Part shown: positions 3 to 18,390 of the stretch, one piece after another
Numbering within the stretch: position 1 is the first letter of the stretch
How the letters are laid out: each line of letters begins with the position of its first letter
Source: Candidatus Jettenia sp.
GTDB lineage: Bacteria > Planctomycetota > Brocadiia > Brocadiales > Brocadiaceae
Reading direction: 5' to 3'
Length of the DNA stretch: 64,000 nucleotides
Assembly (NCBI GenBank): GCA_021650895.1
Contig: CP091278.1
Span: 124,001 to 188,000 of the forward strand
Program-made: the position numbers and the translations under genes
The notes under the pieces: model-generated
Told to the model about the DNA's origin: nothing
What the model saw: the letters and a program-made list of their open reading frames with translations, nothing else
Databases searched by the model: none

Positions 3-3000
3 GATGGAACCGTTACGGATGACGGCTTACCGACGGGCACCATAACGGTTACCTGGAGTGTAGTGAGTGGTACGGGTACGGTAAGCTTCGGTGATGTGAA
101 TGCCGTAGATACAACGGCAAGCTTCTCAGAGGCCGGTACGTATGTGCTGGGTCTAACGGCCGATGATGGAGACTTAATTACGAGCGATGAACTCAGTATC
201 GTAGTATCAAACCCCATTGTGAATCAGCCGCCAGAGGTAGATGCAGGGGTAGATCAGGCGATTACCTTACCGGATAATGCAATCCTGGATGGAACGGTGA
301 CGGATGACGGCTTACCGACGGGTACCCTAACGGTTACCTGGAGTATGGTGAGTGGTACGGGTACGGTAAGCTTCGGTGATGTGAATGCCATAGATACAAC
401 GGCGAGCTTCTCAGAGGCCGGTACGTATGTGCTGAGTCTAATGGCTGATGATGGCGCTTTAATGATGAGTGATGAACTCAGTATCGTGGTATCGAATCCG
501 ATTATAAATCAGCCGCCAGAGGTAGATGCAGGGATAGATCAGACGATTACCTTACCGGATAGTGCAATCCTGGATGGAACGGTTACCGATGATGGTTTAC
601 CGACGGGTACCCTAACGGCTACCTGGAGTGTGGTCAGTGGTACGGGCACCGTAACCTTCGCTGATGCGAGTGCCGTAGACACAACGGCAAGCTTCTCAGA
701 GGCAGGGACGTATGTGCTGGGTCTAACGGCCGATGATGGAGACCTAATTACGAGCGATGAACTCAGTATCGTGGTATCGAATCCGATTATAAATCAGCCG
801 CCAGAGGTAGATGCGGGGGTAGATCAAGCGATTACCTTGCCAGATAATGCAGCATTGGATGGAACGGTGACGGATGACGGCTTACCGACGGGCACCCTAA
901 CGGCTACCTGGAGTGTGGTCAGTGGTACGGGTACCGTAACCTTCGGTGATGCGAATGCCGTAGACACAACGGCAAGCTTCTCAGAGGCCGGTACGTATGT
1001 GCTGGGTCTAATGGCTGATGATGGCGCTTTAATGATGAGTGATGAACTCAGTATCGTGGTATCGAATCCGATTATAAATCAGCCACCTACAGTAGATGCA
1101 GGGATAGATCAGACGATTACGTTGCCGGATAATGCAATCCTGGATGGAACCGTTACGGATGACGGCTTACCGACGGGCACCATAACGACTACCTGGAGTG
1201 TAGTGAGTGGTACGGGTACGGTAAGCTTCGGTGATGTGAATGCCGTAGATACAACGGCAAGCTTCTCAGAGGCCGGTACGTATGTGCTGGGTCTAACGGC
1301 TGATGATGGAGACTTAATTACGAGCGATGAACTCAGTATCGTAGTATCAAACCCCATTGTGAATCAGCCGCCAGAGGTAGATGCAGGGGTAGATCAGGCG
1401 ATTACCTTACCGGATAATGCAGCATTGGATGGAACGGTGACGGATGACGGCTTACCGACGGGTACCCTAACGGTTACCTGGAGTATGGTGAGTGGTACGG
1501 GTACGGTAACCTTTGCCGATGCGAGTGCCATAGATACAACGGCGAGCTTCTCAGAGGCCGGTACGTATGTGCTACAACTAACGGCCGATGATGGAGACCT
1601 AATGACGAGCGATGAACTCAGTATTACGGTATCGAATCCGATTATAAATCAGCCACCTACAGTAGATGCAGGGATAGATCAGACGATTACGTTGCCGGAT
1701 AATGCAATCCTGGATGGAACCGTTACGGATGACGGCTTACCGACGGGCACCCTAACGGCTACCTGGAGTGTGGTCAGTGGTACGGGTACGGTAAGCTTCG
1801 GTGATGTGAATGCCGTAGATACAACGGCAAGCTTCTCAGAGGCTGGTACGTATGTGCTGGGTCTAACGGCAGATGATGGCGCTTTAATGACGAGCGATGA
1901 ACTCAGTATCGTAGTATCAAACCCCATAGTGAATCAACCACCAACGGTAGATGCAGGGATAGATCAGACGATTACCTTACCGGACAGCTGCAATCCTGGA
2001 TGGAACGGTGACGGATGATGGTTTACCAGCAGGTACCCTGAACGGCTACCTGGAGTGTGGTCAGTGGTACGGGCACCGTAACCTTCGCTGATGCGAGTGC
2101 CGTAGACACAACGGCAAGCTTCTCAGAGGCAGGGACGTATGTGCTGAGTCTAACGGCCGATGATGGAGACCTAATTACGAGCGATGAACTCAGTATCGTG
2201 GTATCGAATCCGATTATAAATCAGCCGCCAGAGGTAGATGCGGGGGTAGATCAAGCGATTACCTTGCCAGATAATGCAGCATTGGATGGAACGGTGACGG
2301 ATGATGGTTTACCGGCGGGTACCCTAACGGCTACCTGGAGTGTGGTCAGTGGTACGGGCACCGTAACCTTCGCCGATGCGAGTGCCATAGATACAACGGC
2401 AAGCTTCTCAGAGGCCGGTACGTATGTGCTGGGTCTAACGGCAGATGATGGCGCTTTAATGACGAGCGATGAACTCAGTATCGTAGTATCAAACCCCATA
2501 GTGAATCAACCACCAACGGTAGATGCAGGGATAGATCAGACGATTACCTTACCGGATAGTGCAATCCTGGATGGAACGGTGACGGATGATGGTTTACCGA
2601 CGGGTACCCTAACGGCTACCTGGAGTGTGGTCAGTGGTACGGGACCGTAACCTTCGCTGATGCGAGTGCCGTAGACACGACGGCAAGCTTCTCAGAGGCA
2701 GGGACGTATGTGCTGAGTCTAACGGCCGATGATGGAGACCTAATTACGAGCGATGAACTCAGTATCGTGGTATCGAATCCGATTATAAATCAGCCGCCAG
2801 AGGTAGATGCGGGGGTAGATCAAGCGATTACCTTACCGGATAATGCTATCCTGGATGGAACGGTTACCGATGATGGTTTACCAAGTTCTCCTGGAGTAGT
2901 AACGACTACCTGGAGTGTAGTGAGTGGTACAGGCACGGTAACCTTCGCCGATGCGAGTGCCATAGATACAACGGCAAGCTTCTCAGAGGCCGGTACGTAT

Positions 3001-3330
3001 GTGCTGGGTCTAACGGCAGATGATGGCGCTTTAATGACGAGCGATGAACTCAGTATCGTAGTATCAAACCCCATAGTGAATCAACCACCAACGGTAGATG
3101 CAGGGATAGATCAGACGATTACCTTACCGGATAGTGCAATCCTGGATGGAACGGTGACGGATGATGGTTTACCGACGGGTACCCTAACGACTACCTGGAG
3201 TATGGTGAGTGGTACGGGTACGGTAACCTTTGGTGATGTGAATGCCGTCGATACAACGGCGAGCTTCTCAGAGGCTGGTACGTATGTGCTGAGTCTAACG
3301 GCTGATGATGGCGCTTTAATGACGAGTGAT
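3..3330 (+). repeat. Tandem array of about twelve 285-bp units
   Basis: Near-identical 285-bp units in direct orientation encode the 95-residue domains of the giant protein. Blocks are shared between units in a mosaic way (ILDG versus ALDG, FGDVNA versus FADASA, DLITSDE versus ALMTSDE), as expected from recombination or conversion between copies. Confidence 0.9.
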
Positions 3331-4722
3331 GAGGTGATCGTTGTTGTTAATAACGGTGTTATCTTAGTGAGAGAGATCCGGGTTGCAGCCAGCACAGATG
3401 ATGCAGAAGAGAGGCCTTCGGGCAGCATGCTACTCTCCAGTACGGATCTGGATCTGGTATTTGATAAGTACAATCAGATGATAGGTATACGTTTTAATGG
3501 GATTAATATTCCGGAAAATGCTACTATTACAAATGCCTATATTCAGTTTAAGGCAGATGAGATAACCTCAGAGGCAACTTCATTAACGATTCAGGGTGAA
3601 GATGTTGATAATGCCGTGACGTTTGCCGCCGTTAGCAGGAATATATCATTAAGGCCAAGAACAACAGCCGCAGTGCCGTGGTCTCCTGTGCCGTGGACAA
3701 CGGTGGGGGAAGTTGGCCCTAATCAACAGACGCCTGATATATCTTCGATTATTCAGGAGATTATGGATCGACCGGGTTGGTCAAGCGGCAATTCAGTGGT
3801 AGTTATTTTCACGGGAACTGGTAAGCGTGTAGCAGAGGCATATGATGGGAATCAGGCAGAAGCTCCATTACTCCATATTGAATATAGTGTAGTAGCCCAG
3901 GGTAATCAATCTCCCACAGTTAATGCAGGGGCAGATCAATCGATTACGTTATCGAACAATGCAATCCTGAATGGTACCGTTACCGATGATGGCTTGCCGA
4001 ATCCGCCTGGAGTAGTAACGACAACCTGGAGTGTGGTCAATGGCCCTGGTACCGTTACATTTGCCGATGTGAATGCTGTTGATACAACGGCGAGCTTCTC
4101 GGATGCCGGTACGTATGTGCTGCGTCTGACGGCTGATGATAGCGCTTTAACGGCGAGCGATGAGTTGACTGTTGTTGTTAATAACGGTACTACCATAGTG
4201 AGAGAGATCCGAGTTACGGCCGGTTCAGATGATGCGGAAGAGAGACCTTCAGGTGGCATGCTACTCTCCAGTACGGATCTCGATCTGGTATTTGATAAGA
4301 ACAATCAGACGATAGGTATACGTTTTAATGGGGTTGATATTCCGAAAAATGCTACTATTACAAATGCCTATATTCAGTTTAAGGTAGATGAGATAACCTC
4401 AGAGGCAACTTCATTAACGATTCAGGGTGAAGATGTTGATAATGCCGTGACGTTTGCCGCCGTTAGCAGGAATATATCATTAAGGCCAAGAACAACAGCC
4501 GGAGTATCGTGGTCTCCTGTGCCATGGACAACCGTGGGAGTATCCGGTTCTGATCAGCAGACATCTGATATATCTTCTGTTATTCAGGAGATTGTGAACC
4601 GTTCTGGTTGGTCAAATGGTAACTCTCTGGTAGTTATTATCACGGGGACTGGTAGGCGTATGGCTGAATCGTATGAAGGAAGCCAATCTGGTGCACCCTT
4701 GCTCCATGTGGTGTATCATTAG
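3..4722 (+). pseudogene. Giant PKD-like repeat surface protein, 5'-truncated by the window, three frameshifts
   Basis: The frame is already open at the left edge, so the N-terminus lies outside. The first 3.3 kb encode about twelve tandem units of 95 residues (285 bp), each PKD/K319L-like: [32 protein letters not shown]. After the array come two copies of a roughly 170-residue domain (REIRV, AYIQFK, LTIQGED, APLLH) like the DNRLRE/disaggregatase-associated beta domains, separated by one more diverged PKD unit. Stop at 4720-4722. Comparing units shows one extra base near 1985, one extra near 2040 and one missing near 2644, splitting the frame into 3-2018, about 2040-2650 and about 2645-4722. 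Such proteins are usually secreted adhesins or envelope proteins; that role is inferred. The indels may be real decay or errors in a hard-to-assemble repeat. Confidence 0.8.
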
Positions 4723-6647: not shown

Positions 6648-7298
6648 TTAAAATTCTATAACCTTCCAACGATTTATCTTTGCATAGAGTCGGAGCATAG
6701 GGCTTGCGTTTACGGCTATTGGGTACCCTACCATACGCATAAACTTTACATCTACATATTGATTGGCATAAGCATACGATGATGAAAGGTCGATATTATA
6801 TTCTGTAGCAAGGCGATTCACAACCTTTACTTTTCCACTGCTATATGAATGTATCCCATCTATTTCTCCGGTAATTATGCCCTCATCGTTAATTGCGAGA
6901 CTGGTTCCAATGCCTATATCGGCATTACAATATTTCCTGAAACATTCTACGAAAGGACTTAATGTTCCTGATAATAATATAATTATATAACCCGTATCTT
7001 TTAATTCTTTTATCTCTTTTGTGGCAATTGGAGAAATATAGGGAGAAATCCGTTCTGTAAAACATTCATGCACCGTTGAGAGTATTTTTTCATATTCTTT
7101 ATTCTTGAGATAATATTTGTTTTTTCTAACGTAGATTCCTTTAAGGGATAGAAGCCTATAAATAAAAACATTTGCAAGCCGCAATAAATCCTCGGAGTTA
7201 ATCAGTTTTTTTTCAAGAAGATAGCGAAAAAATACCCTTTCAGAAGAGATACTCTTAATAATCGTCCCATCAATATCAAAAATGGCTGCCTTTTTCAT
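6648..7298 (-). CDS. HAD-IB family phosphatase with altered motif IV
   Basis: 216 residues from ATG at 7298 (MKKAAIFDIDGT). Motif I is DIDGT near residue 8, motif II is LLSGT near 105, and the motif III lysine is in GKVKVV near 155. This order fits subclass IB, the SerB/CicA-like phosphatases. Motif IV, usually [G/S]DSxxD, reads ANQYVD: the first metal-binding aspartate is asparagine and the second is kept. The enzyme may still work or may have a changed metal site. An in-frame upstream start at 7334 would add 12 residues. Confidence 0.75.
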   Translation of the reverse strand: MKKAAIFDIDGTIIKSISSERVFFRYLLEKKLINSEDLLRLANVFIYRLLSLKGIYVRKNKYYLKNKEYEKILSTVHECFTERISPYISPIATKEIKELKDTGYIIILLSGTLSPFVECFRKYCNADIGIGTSLAINDEGIITGEIDGIHSYSSGKVKVVNRLATEYNIDLSSSYAYANQYVDVKFMRMVGYPIAVNASPMLRLYAKINRWKVIEF

Positions 7299-7489
7299 GA
7301 AATGGATTTTACAACGTATGCAGATGTCTTTCAATAAAAAAACGTATTACCTATACGCTATTTTACAGATACAATACATTGATTTATCTCAAATATTTTA
7401 TTTAATCATAAGTGTTTACAAAAAAGACAGTTAATTACCAATATATTGTGCTTTTATGGAAAACATATACAAAGTATTGTGCTTTATTC

Positions 7490-7518
7490 TTGACAAAGGT
7501 CATTTTTGTGATTAGATA
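7490..7518 (+). promoter_or_regulatory. Sigma-70-type promoter for the glycyl-radical-like gene
   Basis: TTGACA at 7490-7495, a 17-bp spacer, and TAGATA at 7513-7518, about 150 bp before the ATG at 7667. The rest of the gap between 7299 and 7666 is AT-rich and shows no gene. Confidence 0.6.
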
Positions 7519-7666
7519 GTATAAAAGTGGGTATACAACATATGGGATATATTTTCTTAAGAAAGAGAGGTGATCTGGAAAAGAGATTAACGAAAGTGAA
7601 AAGACAAAGCGGGTATAATCAATAAGTAAGGAATTATTAGGTATTCTTGATAAGGAGGTTTAACAG

Positions 7667-8062
7667 ATGACAACAGCAGTATTAGAAAATGCGGTAATAA
7701 GTAGAGTTGGTAGCGAAAAGGAAGACGTACAATTATTTATCGAAGAAAGACTAAAGGCCTTTGATGAAACAATCGAAGGGCATGAGTTCTTAGAGATAGA
7801 TGGTGATATTGACGGAAGCACACCACAAGAACATTTACTCAAGATTATTAATCACAAATTAGAATGTGCTTTCGCTATTAGTATTGATGCAGTAATTCGA
7901 CAAGATTTAGATTTTGTTATCGATGCACTGGAAACAGGAACAACGAATCGGCTCCATGGAGTTACCCGTATTGTAGGATATTATAGCAGGGTATCTAACT
8001 GGAATAAGTCAAAAATCGGCGAATTAAACGACAGACACATGGGAAGATATTCAGTGCGATAA
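7667..8062 (+). CDS. Small stand-alone protein with an NrdD-like glycyl-radical tail
   Basis: 131 residues. The C-terminal 32 residues contain TRIVGYYSRV then NWNKSKIGELNDR, resembling the C-terminal glycyl-radical segment of class III anaerobic ribonucleotide reductase (R-[VI]-x-GY, then WN.GK..EL.DR). The candidate radical glycine is Gly104. The N-terminal 95 residues look helical and lack the catalytic barrel. By analogy with YfiD/GrcA, which repairs pyruvate formate-lyase, it could supply or repair a glycyl-radical domain; that is inference. An exact AAGGAGG at 7652-7658, a good promoter and a strong terminator suggest a monocistronic, well-expressed gene. Confidence 0.65.
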   Translation: MTTAVLENAVISRVGSEKEDVQLFIEERLKAFDETIEGHEFLEIDGDIDGSTPQEHLLKIINHKLECAFAISIDAVIRQDLDFVIDALETGTTNRLHGVTRIVGYYSRVSNWNKSKIGELNDRHMGRYSVR

Positions 8063-8097: not shown

Positions 8098-8147
8098 AAA
8101 AGCCATTGCAGTGTGTATGAGTTACACTGCAATGGCTTTCTTTATTT
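8098..8147 (+). terminator. Rho-independent terminator
   Basis: A perfect 14-bp stem (8101-8114 with 8124-8137, a 9-nt loop) extends by two A-T pairs into a T-rich run and lies 35 bp after the stop of the glycyl-radical-like gene. Confidence 0.9.
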
Positions 8148-8287: not shown

Positions 8288-8334
8288 CTAATCTCGTAGG
8301 GATGTCATGATTATAGCAAAAAACAGAAAAAAGC

Positions 8335-8446
8335 CCTTAAACCCCGAAGGGGTGATATAGGAAGCCTGTGTTGAGATGTTATTCCTTCGGGATTTGATGG
8401 TATGGTAATATTTCTCTAGCATTATTTCATCCTTTCGGGGTTCTGT
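8335..8446. repeat. Inverted CCCCGAAGGGG / CCTTTCGGGG repeats
   Basis: AAACCCCGAAGGGGTGA near 8339 is mirrored by TTTCATCCTTTCGGGGTT near 8426, with CCTTCGGG between them, an imperfect inverted repeat. No coding gene is seen from 8063 to 8894; the gap holds only a terminator and palindromes. Confidence 0.5.
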
Positions 8447-8631
8447 ATTCAAGGTTGTGTATTATCTATAACCCCCTTCAGACCTGAAGTATAGATATCA
8501 ACAATTTGCTTGTTTTGCCTGGGGTTGTCCAAAAGATGAAAGCCTATAGATAACTTAGCGAGAAATACTCCAGTAAGTATTCTTTTGTTACTCAATAGTA
8601 ACTTGATGTATAGGATTTTCATTTTGTGCAA

Positions 8632-8745
8632 GCGGGCTCAGGGTGGCACGGACAAACTCTGTTTGTCCGTGCTTGTTTCAATATCGGAGTGGAGAGGGAA
8701 TATCATACACGGACAAACAAAGTTTGTCAGTGCTACCCTGGCTCA
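8632..8745. repeat. Nested palindrome with GCACGGACAAAC arms
   Basis: A perfect hairpin GCACGGACAAAC-TCT-GTTTGTCCGTGC lies at 8646-8672. A second related hairpin is at 8708-8731. Together they form a larger inverted repeat bounded by GGGCTCAGGGTGGCAC and GTGCTACCCTGGCTC. Confidence 0.6.
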
Positions 8746-8894
8746 ATAATACCTTAATAGGTAAGCTATTGCATACCGTAATTCTATTGAATTTATCTAT
8801 ATGTACCATAGGCAGAAGCGAATCTTGTATTCGCCCTTATCGATTGCATAGGCAGATACTTTTTGGACAACCCCAAAGAATATACGCGTGTGGA

Positions 8895-9380
8895 TCAACT
8901 TGCACCAGGAATGCTCCCGCTGGGAATAATAGGGGGCGTAGATGGCATTCTAACCATAAGGACGGGGCAGGGCGCCTTGCGGACAACCTTTTCAGCTACA
9001 CTGCCCATCATAACATGAGAAATTCCTGTTCTTCCATGCGTACCCATTACGATAATATCTACCCCGAGTTCCTTAGAAGCGTTTGTTATCTCATAAAAGG
9101 GCACACCCTTTACGATAATAGTTTCTACCTCCAGTACATCCGTTGTTCCCTCAGGGAGACTCTTTATTAAATTTGCCCGAATTTTGGCAACATCAATCTC
9201 CTCGGGCTTATTATAAGGGCTGAATTTGTATATTTCTGTATCGTAAAAACGGGAATCTATTACATGCATGAGATATAATTTTGCCTCATCTTTCAGCGCC
9301 AAAGAAATTGCATATTTTAAGGCAAGATACGAACATTCGGAGTGGTCTACAGGACATAATATCTTCTTTAATACGATCAT
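8895..9380 (-). CDS. Universal stress protein (UspA family)
   Basis: 161 residues. KKILCPVDHSECSYLAL at the N-terminus and GTHGRTG-(9x)-GSVAEKVV near residue 113 form the ATP-binding signature of UspA proteins, ending in CPVLMVR. A 15-residue tail rich in Pro and Ser is unusual. The ATG at 9380 has GAGGA upstream. It follows the AmrS gene by 24 bp, so the two are probably an operon. Its stress role is by family only. Confidence 0.9.
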   Translation of the reverse strand: MIVLKKILCPVDHSECSYLALKYAISLALKDEAKLYLMHVIDSRFYDTEIYKFSPYNKPEEIDVAKIRANLIKSLPEGTTDVLEVETIIVKGVPFYEITNASKELGVDIIVMGTHGRTGISHVMMGSVAEKVVRKAPCPVLMVRMPSTPPIIPSGSIPGAS

Positions 9381-9404: not shown

Positions 9405-10415
9405 TTACATGCCAATACCATCGATGCCGGTATTGCATGCCGGACATCTTGAATTGATAATGTTATTTTCAACGATCTGGTATCCATATCTTTTAATAAG
9501 GATCTTCTTACATGCATAACAATAGGTGTTTTCTCCTCCTTCGCCAGGCACGTTGCCTTCATACACATATCGCAGTCCCGCTTCCAAACCTATTTCACGT
9601 GCCATTCTCAACGTATCAACTGAAGTTGGGGGTTTTTCAATGAGGCGGTATCCCGGATAAAAGCGACTTACATGCCACGGAACCTCAGGTCCCAGACTTC
9701 TTATAAATCCAGCAATCTGCCTTAATTCTGATTCTGAATCGTTAATTCCCGGTATGATCAATGTGGTTATTTCTATCCAGATGCCCATCTCTTTGTAGGA
9801 ACGGATGCAATCGATTACCTCGTCCAATTGCGCACCGCACAGCTTTTTATAGGTTTCTCGAGAAAAACTTTTCATGTCCACGTTTGCGGCATGCAGATAC
9901 GGTTTTATTGTCGTAAGGGCCTCACGGGTTATATATCCGTTTGTTACAAATACGTTTTTAATCGATTTATTATCTGCTATTTTAGCTATTTCATAGGCAT
10001 ACTCAAAAAAGATCGTAGGTTCCGTGTAGGTATATGCAATACTCTTACAGTGATAACCCAAAGCATCTTCAACGATCCTTTCCGGAGCAACATCTCTCCC
10101 TACGATTTGCTCATAATTTCCGGGCAGTTGTGATATCTCATAATTTTGGCAGTTCAGGCACTTGAAGTTGCATCCTACCGTTGCAACAGAAAAAGAGGTT
10201 GTGCCTGGATAAAAATGATACAGTGGTTTTTTTTCAATAGGGTCGATATTTTCCGAGACGAGCTTTCTGTAAACAAGGGAATAGAGTATGCCTCTGCGGT
10301 TCTCTCTGACCCGGCAAATGCCCTTTTTCCCATCTGCAATAATACAGTGATGGCGGCAAAGATAACACCTTACCTTCGTATCTCCAAGTTTCTCAAAAAA
10401 CATCGCTTCTTTCAT
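9405..10415 (-). CDS. amrS: AmmeMemoRadiSam-type radical SAM enzyme (AmrS-like)
   Basis: 336 residues. The radical SAM motif CNFKCLNC (Cys82, Cys86, Cys89) coordinates the 4Fe-4S cluster. The N-terminal CYLCRHHC and GKKGICRVRENR and the downstream SAM-barrel segments (YTEPTIFFEYA, VTNGYIT, PGINDSE, PWHVSRFYPGY) match the PflA-like AmrS family. A C-terminal zinc-ribbon-like CYAC...CPAC pair is also present. AmrS usually sits with amrA and amrB; neither is in this window. The reaction is not established from sequence. Confidence 0.85.
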   Translation of the reverse strand: MKEAMFFEKLGDTKVRCYLCRHHCIIADGKKGICRVRENRRGILYSLVYRKLVSENIDPIEKKPLYHFYPGTTSFSVATVGCNFKCLNCQNYEISQLPGNYEQIVGRDVAPERIVEDALGYHCKSIAYTYTEPTIFFEYAYEIAKIADNKSIKNVFVTNGYITREALTTIKPYLHAANVDMKSFSRETYKKLCGAQLDEVIDCIRSYKEMGIWIEITTLIIPGINDSESELRQIAGFIRSLGPEVPWHVSRFYPGYRLIEKPPTSVDTLRMAREIGLEAGLRYVYEGNVPGEGGENTYCYACKKILIKRYGYQIVENNIINSRCPACNTGIDGIGM

Positions 10416-16478: not shown

Positions 16479-16545
16479 ACCATCGTCTCATTATCAGAGA
16501 TAACAATATCGGGGTACACCTTCCATAACATCTTTTGAATACTAT
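16479..16545 (-). pseudogene. Fragment of a second antirepressor 3' end
   Basis: About 66 bp strongly resemble 15351-15416, the antirepressor's C-terminal coding part (CATCGTCTCA-TATCAGAG shared). No open frame is preserved, so a second copy has been lost or cut by the HigBA module. Confidence 0.65.
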
Positions 16546-16553
16546 AATTTCCC

Positions 16554-16583
16554 TTGACGATAATAAACATAATGTTTATTATC
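16554..16583 (+). promoter_or_regulatory. higBA promoter with a 25-bp palindromic operator
   Basis: TTGACG at 16554-16559, a 17-bp gap, and TATTAT at 16577-16582. A perfect palindrome at 16559-16583 (GATAATAAACAT-A-ATGTTTATTATC) covers the spacer and -10, an obvious site for autorepression by HigA. The predicted transcript would begin almost at the GTG start at 16589. Confidence 0.75.
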
Positions 16584-16588
16584 ATTCT

Positions 16589-16870
16589 GTGATAAAATCG
16601 TTCCGTTGTGGTGATACTCAAAAAATATTCGACCGCGAATACTCACGAAAGTTCCCACGCGATATTCAAGCACGTGCATTTGCAAAGCTCAACGCGATTG
16701 ATGCCGCCGTCCATCTTCAAGATTTGCGCTTACCACCATCAAATCGGCTTGAAGCGTTGAAGGGAGAACGCAAGGGACAGTATAGTATTCGTATTAACGA
16801 TCGGTGGCGTATTTGTTTTGAATGGTCTGGCGATAACGCAGAACAGGTAGAAATTGTCGATTATCATTAA
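16589..16870 (+). CDS. higB: HigB-type toxin (RelE superfamily)
   Basis: 93 residues from GTG at 16589. IKSFRCGDTQKIFD at the start, LNAIDAAVHLQDLRLPP in the middle, LEALKGERKGQYSIRIND, then WRICFEW and the end EIVDYH are the HigB pattern. HigB cuts mRNA on the ribosome. HigA follows after 10 bp with the usual toxin-first order. Expression is probably leaderless or nearly so, since the -10 element ends only 7 bp before the start. Confidence 0.9.
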   Translation: MIKSFRCGDTQKIFDREYSRKFPRDIQARAFAKLNAIDAAVHLQDLRLPPSNRLEALKGERKGQYSIRINDRWRICFEWSGDNAEQVEIVDYH

Positions 16871-16880
16871 GGAGTTAAGT

Positions 16881-17186
16881 ATGGTTAAACATCGTATTGC
16901 GCCGGTGCATCCCGGAGTGTATCTGAAAGAATTGCTCAACGAATTGAAAATATCGCAATACCGGCTCGCACAGGGTTTGCATGTGCCTGCCATGCGAATA
17001 AACCACGTGGTCAACGGCAAACGCCCGGTAACCGCCGAACTTGCATTGCGTTTAGGACGCTATTTTGGCCAGAGCCCACGTTATTGGATAAACTTGCAAA
17101 GTCGGTATGATATGGATAGTGCTGAGGATTCTTTATCAGAACAGATAACACACGAAGTACACCCATTGACAACAGCCGGAAATTAG
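16881..17186 (+). CDS. higA: HigA-type antitoxin with HTH domain
   Basis: 101 residues from ATG at 16881, with AAGGAG at 16869. PVHPGVYLKELLNELKIS then QYRLAQGLHVPAMRINHVVNGKRPVTAELALRLGRYF is the XRE-type helix-turn-helix of HigA; SPRYWINLQSRYDMD is its usual tail. It neutralises HigB and should bind the palindrome at 16559-16583. Confidence 0.9.
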   Translation: MVKHRIAPVHPGVYLKELLNELKISQYRLAQGLHVPAMRINHVVNGKRPVTAELALRLGRYFGQSPRYWINLQSRYDMDSAEDSLSEQITHEVHPLTTAGN

Positions 17187-17933: not shown

Positions 17934-18137
17934 ATGAAAGTATCAGATTTAACGATTGAAGAGTTTGAAGATTTGCTTCGCAAAACGATAGAGGAAGAGA
18001 TTGAAGACCTCTCTATCATGTTAGACCCTACTGTAAAGGCGAAGATCGAGGAAGGATTGAAGGATATTAAAGAGGGTAGGGTTATATCCTTGGATGATCT
18101 CATAGCCCGAAGAAAGGCTAAACGTGGGAAAGTTTAA
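17934..18137 (+). CDS. RelB-type antitoxin partner
   Basis: 67 residues, from ATG at 17934 with AGGAGA upstream. VSDLTIEEFEDLLRKTIEEEIEDL then PTVKAKIEEGLKDIKEGRVISLDDL is like short antitoxins that precede RelE toxins. The C-terminus is basic. It overlaps the toxin start by 14 nt. Confidence 0.75.
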   Translation: MKVSDLTIEEFEDLLRKTIEEEIEDLSIMLDPTVKAKIEEGLKDIKEGRVISLDDLIARRKAKRGKV

Positions 18138-18390
18138 AGTCGTCTTTTCTGATAAGGCAGAAAAGGATACAGATACCCTAACAGATGATGACTTTAATCG
18201 TATTGTAACTGGATGTAAAAGACTCGAGGATAATCCCATTCCTGACGGCAAGCATATAAAGAAGCTTAAGGGCTATGAAGATCTTTACCGCTTACGAATT
18301 GGAGATTACAGAATCATCTTTGAATGGAAAGGATCGCAAATTAACATTGCAAGGGTTCTTACCCGGCAGGGCTTTGGAAAAAAATATTAA
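18124..18390 (+). CDS. RelE/ParE-type toxin
   Basis: 88 residues, GTG start at 18124. KFKVVFSDKAEKDTDTL, then PDGKHIKKLKGYEDLYRLRIGDYRIIFEW and INIARVLTRQG are the RelE superfamily signature; basic residues for RNA cleavage are present (R in YRLRIGDYRI). It overlaps the antitoxin, the common coupling. The pair is framed by structured repeats R1 and R2. Confidence 0.9.
   Translation: MGKFKVVFSDKAEKDTDTLTDDDFNRIVTGCKRLEDNPIPDGKHIKKLKGYEDLYRLRIGDYRIIFEWKGSQINIARVLTRQGFGKKY

Follow-up and report, generated by a model that had tools for sequence, protein, structure and literature searches.

The window analysed here, a stretch of 64,000 nucleotides, corresponds to positions 124,001-188,000 of a 3.82-Mb single-contig genome of the genus Candidatus Jettenia, an anammox planctomycete. 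One of its small genes raises the question of what the radical-bearing tail of a class III ribonucleotide reductase (RNR) might do when it is encoded apart from the reductase NrdD. The initial annotation had described the product as a 131-residue protein ending in a class III RNR-type radical segment, with the catalytic domain missing, and this proved correct: the open reading frame matches only the end of the Pfam model NRDD (530-560 of 562; E = 2.8e-5, below the gathering cut-off) and the NCBIfam model TIGR02487 at 550-579 of 581. With 530-560 as the sole part of NRDD that is matched, the ten-stranded barrel, the active-site cysteines and the zinc ribbon of NrdD are absent, and there is neither a CxxC pair nor a set of zinc-ribbon cysteines among the 131 residues. 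The NrdD-type C-terminal glycyl-radical loop with its conserved glycine is present. The closest named relative, from Ca. Jettenia ecosi, is 98% identical. The GrcA/YfiD family domain PF01228 is absent from the protein, for which the Pfam scan yields NRDD alone; a PFL-type GrcA identity was ruled out, there being no PF01228 in the genome. The features of the locus are collected in Table 1.

Table 1. Features of the stand-alone gene and its flanks (window coordinates).
Feature	Position	Strand	Basis
NrdR-like box 1, TACCAATATATTGTGC	7436..7451	.	top-scoring pair of the window; pair conserved upstream of orthologues
NrdR-like box 2, ATACAAAGTATTGTGC	7467..7482	.	begins 31 bp after the start of box 1, 15-bp spacer
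Shine-Dalgarno sequence AAGGAGGT	7652..7659	+	read from the sequence
Gene for stand-alone NrdD-type glycyl-radical protein, 131 aa	7667..8062	+	ORF with ATG start; orthologues in nearly all genomes of the order
N-terminal alpha-beta-beta-beta-alpha domain, residues ~17-91, proposed docking domain	7715..7939	+	AlphaFold2 model m99a1dacbac3a
Glycyl-radical domain (GRD), residues 97-131, GVTRIVGYYSRVSNWNKSKIGELNDRHMGRYSVR	7955..8059	+	NRDD 530-560 match; invariant residues; hhalign to NrdD tail
Codon of predicted radical glycine, Gly104	7976..7978	+	aligns with the glycine of the NrdD motif RIVGYF/RIVGYY; invariant in 70 homologues
Intrinsic-terminator-like hairpin directly past the stop codon	8071..8091	+	hairpin scan
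Second, longer intrinsic-terminator-like hairpin	8099..8139	+	hairpin scan

The likeness to the NrdD tail is not a matter of chance, since all 70 aligned diverse homologues match NRDD (E < 0.01), the residues R101, V103, G104, Y105, N111, W112, N113, S115, K116, E119, L120, R123 and Y128 are invariant among them, and a profile-profile alignment (hhalign) of the family with the NrdD tail gives E = 3.9e-14. Homologues without the glycine, named by the initial annotation as evidence that would speak against its reading, were not encountered: Gly104 is kept in all 70. These proteins are a large family in which a small alpha-beta-beta-beta-alpha domain is joined to a GRD. The N-terminal domain is modelled by AlphaFold2 with block-mean pLDDT values of 89-96 across residues 21-90. 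Two AlphaFold models (pLDDT 75 and 83) gave no fold match to it in the PDB at E ≤ 0.001, a sequence-profile search of the PDB with the stand-alone family retrieved NrdD tails alone and nothing for this domain, and no domain besides NRDD was seen in a Pfam scan of the homologues. We infer that it serves as a docking handle to NrdD and/or NrdG2, a role which no structural relative backs. A truncated nrdD pseudogene was ruled out by the protein's own conserved N-terminal domain, the orthologues across the order and the conserved operators (see below). Protein trans-splicing via a split intein was likewise considered; no intein halves were apparent at the NrdD end or before TRIVGYY when the sequences were read.

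The gene was also said to carry strong expression signals. This holds for a good Shine-Dalgarno sequence and for two terminator-like hairpins (three such hairpins were found in the region against 0.4 expected), but not for a promoter, as no match to a sigma-70 promoter was found on the + strand; a lone TTGACA lies at 7490-7495. The flanking genes, all on the minus strand, encode a HAD-IB hydrolase (6648-7334), a universal stress protein (8895-9380) and an AmmeMemoRadiSam radical-SAM enzyme (9405-10415); this neighbourhood is kept in most Brocadiaceae loci, not in other families. The intergenic stretch 8300-8800 contains inverted repeats such as CACGGACAAACTCTGTTTGTCCGTG, plus a second related copy. 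Elsewhere on the + strand of the window we noted a large cell-surface-like protein with a long array of near-identical repeats (63-4722), split into three frames at about 2018-2057 and 2650-2710 by frameshifts or assembly errors, as well as a HigB-like gene followed by one for a HigA-family antitoxin (16535-17186 for the two) and, apart from them, a RelE-like gene (18124-18390).

A radical domain of this kind calls for a partner. None of the window matches NrdD, in line with the earlier remark that it holds no class III reductase gene, and the partner is found elsewhere on the same contig: nrdR (2,672,107-2,672,541) is followed by nrdD (NRDD match at 2,673,274-2,674,998) and nrdG2 (2,675,213-2,675,788). 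The Jettenia NrdD has its own glycine intact (SRIVGYF). Neither a class I/II RNR (PF02867) nor a PFL-type glycyl-radical enzyme (PF01228) was found in this complete genome, so that class III is apparently the sole RNR of the organism. Throughout the order, NrdD was matched in 62 of 62 genomes, full-length or nearly so in nearly all; homologues in organisms devoid of NrdD, which would likewise have counted against a role with this enzyme, were therefore not seen within the order. The search for the stand-alone protein gave a match in 60 of the 62, a few of which (G024, G037) represent the NrdD tail only. Beyond the order, it occurs in other Planctomycetota, in Elusimicrobia and in further bacteria. 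As expected for a separate subunit, NrdD and NrdG2 co-occur with the stand-alone protein, the genes are adjacent in two loci (L173 and L274, see below), and NrdR-like boxes precede both the stand-alone genes and nrdR-nrdD.

The state of the NrdD glycine provides the main argument. In the order we read 40 NrdD C-termini directly. The glycine is absent in 20 of them, namely in all 19 read from the four anammox families besides Brocadiaceae (f2-f5) and in one genome of Brocadiaceae (f1), G035. At the radical site these enzymes have Ser, Thr, Cys, Asp, Asn, Leu or Ala, and in Scalindua one residue is deleted; their core cysteines and all four zinc cysteines are invariant. A stand-alone gene with TRIVGYY or TRIVGYF is present in 18 of the 20 genomes. 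In the other two (G010, locus L079, 96% complete; G061, locus L085, 77% complete), which are incomplete drafts, glycine-less NrdD and NrdG2 were found and the stand-alone gene was not detected. Within the glycine-less group, the NrdD core has a pairwise identity of 76% and the stand-alone GRD one of 78%, but the NrdD tail reaches only 37%, which argues that constraint has shifted from the tail in cis to the protein in trans. On a tree of the NrdD core from which the tail was excluded, six or more changes are required to account for the state of the glycine. Glycine loss is associated with presence of the stand-alone gene when f2-f5 are compared with f6-f9 (Fisher test, p = 3e-7) and also after addition of f1 (p = 0.015), values that are indicative only because of phylogeny; the second is weaker since f1 keeps both the glycine and the stand-alone protein. 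The protein is found beside a glycine-containing NrdD in three Elusimicrobia genomes as well.

Once the hypothesis had been formed, we predicted for 22 genomes outside the order, taken from a phylum-wide sample, which have the stand-alone gene and no glycine-containing tail in a long frame, that they would still hold an NrdD, with the glycine absent. An NrdD was found in 20 of the 22, a selection that partly implied the missing glycine but not an intact NrdD core; of the remaining two, one gave no match and one only its stand-alone gene. In non-anammox Planctomycetota with the stand-alone gene, the motif was absent from all 18 readable NrdD tails, at least four of which seem to derive from genomes already covered earlier in the analysis, and comparison genomes lacking the stand-alone gene kept the NrdD glycine in four of four cases. 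Given the loss of the glycine in most anammox families and many further Planctomycetota, the protein should there be an obligatory subunit rather than a repair part. In G001, G002, G052 and G058, anammox genomes with glycine-less NrdD and nrdG2 adjoining it, we found no class I/II RNR, so that the glycine-less NrdD together with the stand-alone subunit should supply the dNTPs; these are metagenome-assembled genomes of 93-95% completeness, and genes missing from drafts are the chief caveat on necessity. The class II-type RNR (PF02867) is distributed patchily within anammox genera, and many Brocadiaceae seem to depend on class III alone.

In some genomes the enzyme appears to be physically split. 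Locus L173 (genome G083) carries on one strand a truncated nrdR frame, a glutaredoxin-like gene, nrdG2, nrdD and the stand-alone gene (the first two named from reading the sequence). Its NrdD ends with ...CGVCGSQNVPGVSWIEEIKG*, directly past the zinc finger; the small gene begins after a gap of 73 bp and has a ribosome-binding site to itself. The same arrangement is seen on a rumen Elusimicrobia contig (L274), where NrdD ends with ...CENCGAENVFGVKEI* and the small gene follows about 32 bp on. A virus (G104) encodes a GRD-less NrdD ending with ...CENCNSGDVEGIEYYQ*, likewise past the zinc finger, and its stand-alone gene lies about 4.7 kb away. The viral GRD-less NrdD, on contig IMGVR_UViG_3300031566_000011 (L337, 1787-6661, minus strand), is a frame of 1,625 aa with two intein-like insertions, one directly after the core YC motif and the other after GGQ.

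The short form is widespread in viral contigs. Among 60 loci found in IMG/VR there is a single full NrdD; the other 59 are short ORFs (91-214 aa) of the stand-alone type. In several contigs the neighbours are clearly viral and include a Mu-like transposase, a transposition protein and Gam (L185), a head protease and a head decoration protein (L188), portal and head morphogenesis proteins (L231) and a major head protein (L198). Five viral representatives gave no significant match to PHROGs, and a tblastn search with the window protein against 50,697 records of cultured phages gave nothing at E ≤ 0.01. Some Brocadiaceae possess a second, more divergent stand-alone copy; one of these (L057 in G016) is identical in sequence to the viral contig L186, so that at least one second copy is probably prophage-borne.

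Expression of the two halves may be coordinated by NrdR, for which TIGR00244 is matched in the Jettenia genome. A pair of NrdR-like boxes upstream of the gene, overlooked in the initial annotation, is the top-scoring pair of the whole window (24 of 32; the next best reaches 23). The usual NrdR-box spacer is 15-16 bp (PMC12051234), which means 31-32 bp from start to start. With a literature-style consensus, the best pair is spaced by 31 bp in 38 of 47 upstream regions, the window included. For most primary stand-alone copies, the pair score is reached by at most one of 40 shuffles. The consensus of the first scan had been drawn partly from these very sequences; when the scan was repeated with the literature-style consensus, scores were lower and the spacing held. 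Scores of single boxes are modest, and the operator argument therefore rests on conservation. What defines a member of the NrdR regulon, i.e. two boxes, a 15-16 bp spacer and an NrdR in the genome, is found here. Similar pairs occur upstream of nrdR-nrdD; none lie immediately upstream of nrdD because nrdR intervenes and the boxes precede nrdR. Both halves of the proposed enzyme would thus be under the same kind of operator. The divergent second copies of four Brocadiaceae genomes (L054, L055, L056 and L057) lack NrdR boxes. An RNA element upstream of nrdD was not found either, as an Rfam scan of eight NrdD and stand-alone loci at gathering thresholds returned one tRNA only.

The best explanation of the sequences, the co-occurrence, the reciprocal loss and retention of the glycine, the gene adjacency in two genomes and the operators is, in our view, that the gene product is a subunit of class III RNR which carries the glycyl radical in trans, obligatory where NrdD has lost its glycine and a second or replacement carrier in Ca. 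Jettenia; judged from sequence, we hold this to be very probable. In NrdD, the C-terminal loop enters the barrel and brings its glycine to the finger loop; it is from this glycine that NrdG takes a hydrogen (PMC4493059). In the scheme that we propose, whose steps (binding, docking through the N-terminal domain, activation by NrdG2 and transfer of the radical) we infer, the C-terminal 35 residues of the stand-alone protein would replace NrdD's own radical loop inside the barrel. The N-terminal domain would dock the subunit to NrdD and/or NrdG2, and the radical-SAM activase NrdG2 would generate the radical on Gly104. From there the radical would move to NrdD's active-site cysteine, after which ribonucleotides would be reduced in the usual way; NrdR would co-regulate the stand-alone gene with the nrdR-nrdD-nrdG2 operon. 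Where NrdD lacks the glycine, as in most anammox families, many other Planctomycetota, some other bacteria and at least one virus, the result would be a true two-polypeptide split enzyme. In Ca. Jettenia, whose NrdD keeps the glycine, the protein may act as a parallel or replacement carrier, e.g. once oxygen has cleaved NrdD at the radical glycine. The initial suggestion, an NrdD radical domain that is encoded alone and works in trans as YfiD/GrcA does, is hence strongly supported, but "spare" is too weak a word for a family whose NrdD partner is often glycine-less; for Ca. Jettenia itself, a spare-part role is possible. On a broader scale, we consider it rather likely that a class III RNR lineage exists as an obligate two-polypeptide glycyl-radical enzyme, in which the radical resides on a small exchangeable subunit, the glycine of the reductase was lost repeatedly, and viruses carry copies of the subunit that charge the host's NrdD or their own.

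For Jettenia and the other Brocadiaceae, the protein might be purely a repair part of the YfiD kind that replaces the tail of an oxygen-cleaved NrdD and is otherwise idle, a reading to which we assign a serious, though somewhat less than even, chance. It would agree with the glycine and the conserved tail of the Brocadiaceae NrdD, with the rescue of oxygen-cleaved PFL by YfiD and Y06I and the spare parts suggested for other glycyl-radical enzymes (PMC8683613), and with the microaeration that anammox bacteria encounter (PMC9909701). However, the same protein accompanies glycine-less NrdD in the sister families and in G035, itself a Brocadiaceae genome, and the NrdR operators suggest routine co-expression with the RNR rather than an oxygen response. 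The same operators, and the occurrence beside glycine-containing NrdD in Brocadiaceae and three Elusimicrobia genomes, could also be expected of a regulator that occupies NrdG2 or the NrdD barrel and limits radical formation, with no catalytic radical of its own. Since the glycine and its motif are invariant and form the sole intact radical loop in genomes with glycine-less NrdD, and since an inhibitor leaves the repeated glycine loss in NrdD unexplained, we regard such a function as very unlikely.

It is hardly credible, in turn, that glycine-less NrdDs employ another radical residue and that the small protein does something else. Homologues of glycyl-radical enzymes with Ala, Ser or Thr in place of the glycine do form stable radicals (PMC11528403), but those enzymes have a conserved residue in an otherwise intact motif. 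In glycine-less NrdDs the residue varies and the motif around it is decayed or lost; together with the deletion in Scalindua and the missing tails in L173, L274 and the virus, this indicates decay rather than a conserved substitution. As to the activase, the neighbouring AmmeMemoRadiSam enzyme, a distant relative of the PFL activase, has only a slim chance of serving the stand-alone protein: it matches TIGR04337, with weaker likeness to activases, and stays nearby in most Brocadiaceae loci, but it is missing beside the stand-alone gene in all other anammox families and lineages examined, whereas NrdG2 adjoins nrdD and, in L173, the split pair.

If the obligate two-polypeptide enzyme is real, it would be the first known case of a glycyl-radical enzyme whose radical domain is a separate protein normally and not only after damage. 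DNA synthesis depends on RNR, an essential enzyme, and several of these organisms have no detected RNR of another class. A separate radical subunit would alter the view of how glycyl-radical enzymes are built and protected, as the cell could produce, lose and renew the oxygen-sensitive part at low cost and adjust its amount separately. Glycine-less NrdDs would not be dead enzymes where the partner is present, a function would be offered for many unannotated viral genes, and in the laboratory the radical domain could be loaded or mutated apart from the catalytic core. It would also answer a question raised in the YfiD literature, i.e. whether spare parts exist for glycyl-radical enzymes besides PFL (PMC8683613).

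YfiD and Y06I, both acting on PFL, are the sole validated spare-part proteins, others having been proposed as a possibility (PMC8683613). Like YfiD/GrcA of E. coli and Y06I of phage T4, the family described here consists of a small free GRD that is extended N-terminally and is proposed to make a larger enzyme complete in trans, and has bacterial and phage versions. It differs in that the radical domain is of the NrdD type and not PF01228, in that the N-terminal part is predicted to be folded whereas that of YfiD is disordered (PMC8683613), and in that its partner is often glycine-less, whereas the rescue described for YfiD concerns a partner with its glycine in place. With NrdD (PF13597, TIGR02487) it shares the radical loop and helix at the C-terminus, including their motif, and the partner NrdD and NrdG2 are found in the same genomes; unlike NrdD, it lacks the catalytic barrel, ATP-cone and zinc ribbon and has a different N-terminal domain. 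An RNR in more than one reading frame is also known from the split genes of phages (PMC3653736), but those are genes interrupted by introns, inteins or homing endonucleases, whereas here a domain resides in a gene of its own, which adds an N-terminal domain and is regulated separately, in bacteria as well as viruses, accompanied by repeated loss of the cis copy. Aminoacyl radical enzymes (PMC11528403) are likewise homologues of glycyl-radical enzymes without the catalytic glycine; they keep the motif with a conserved Ala, Ser or Thr, whereas here the motif is decayed or deleted and the glycine persists in a second protein. Literature searches in open-licence PubMed Central papers turned up no NrdD radical domain described as stand-alone or split. 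A small trans-acting radical domain as such is already known; as far as could be found, one of the NrdD type, and the permanent replacement of the cis domain by it, are new.
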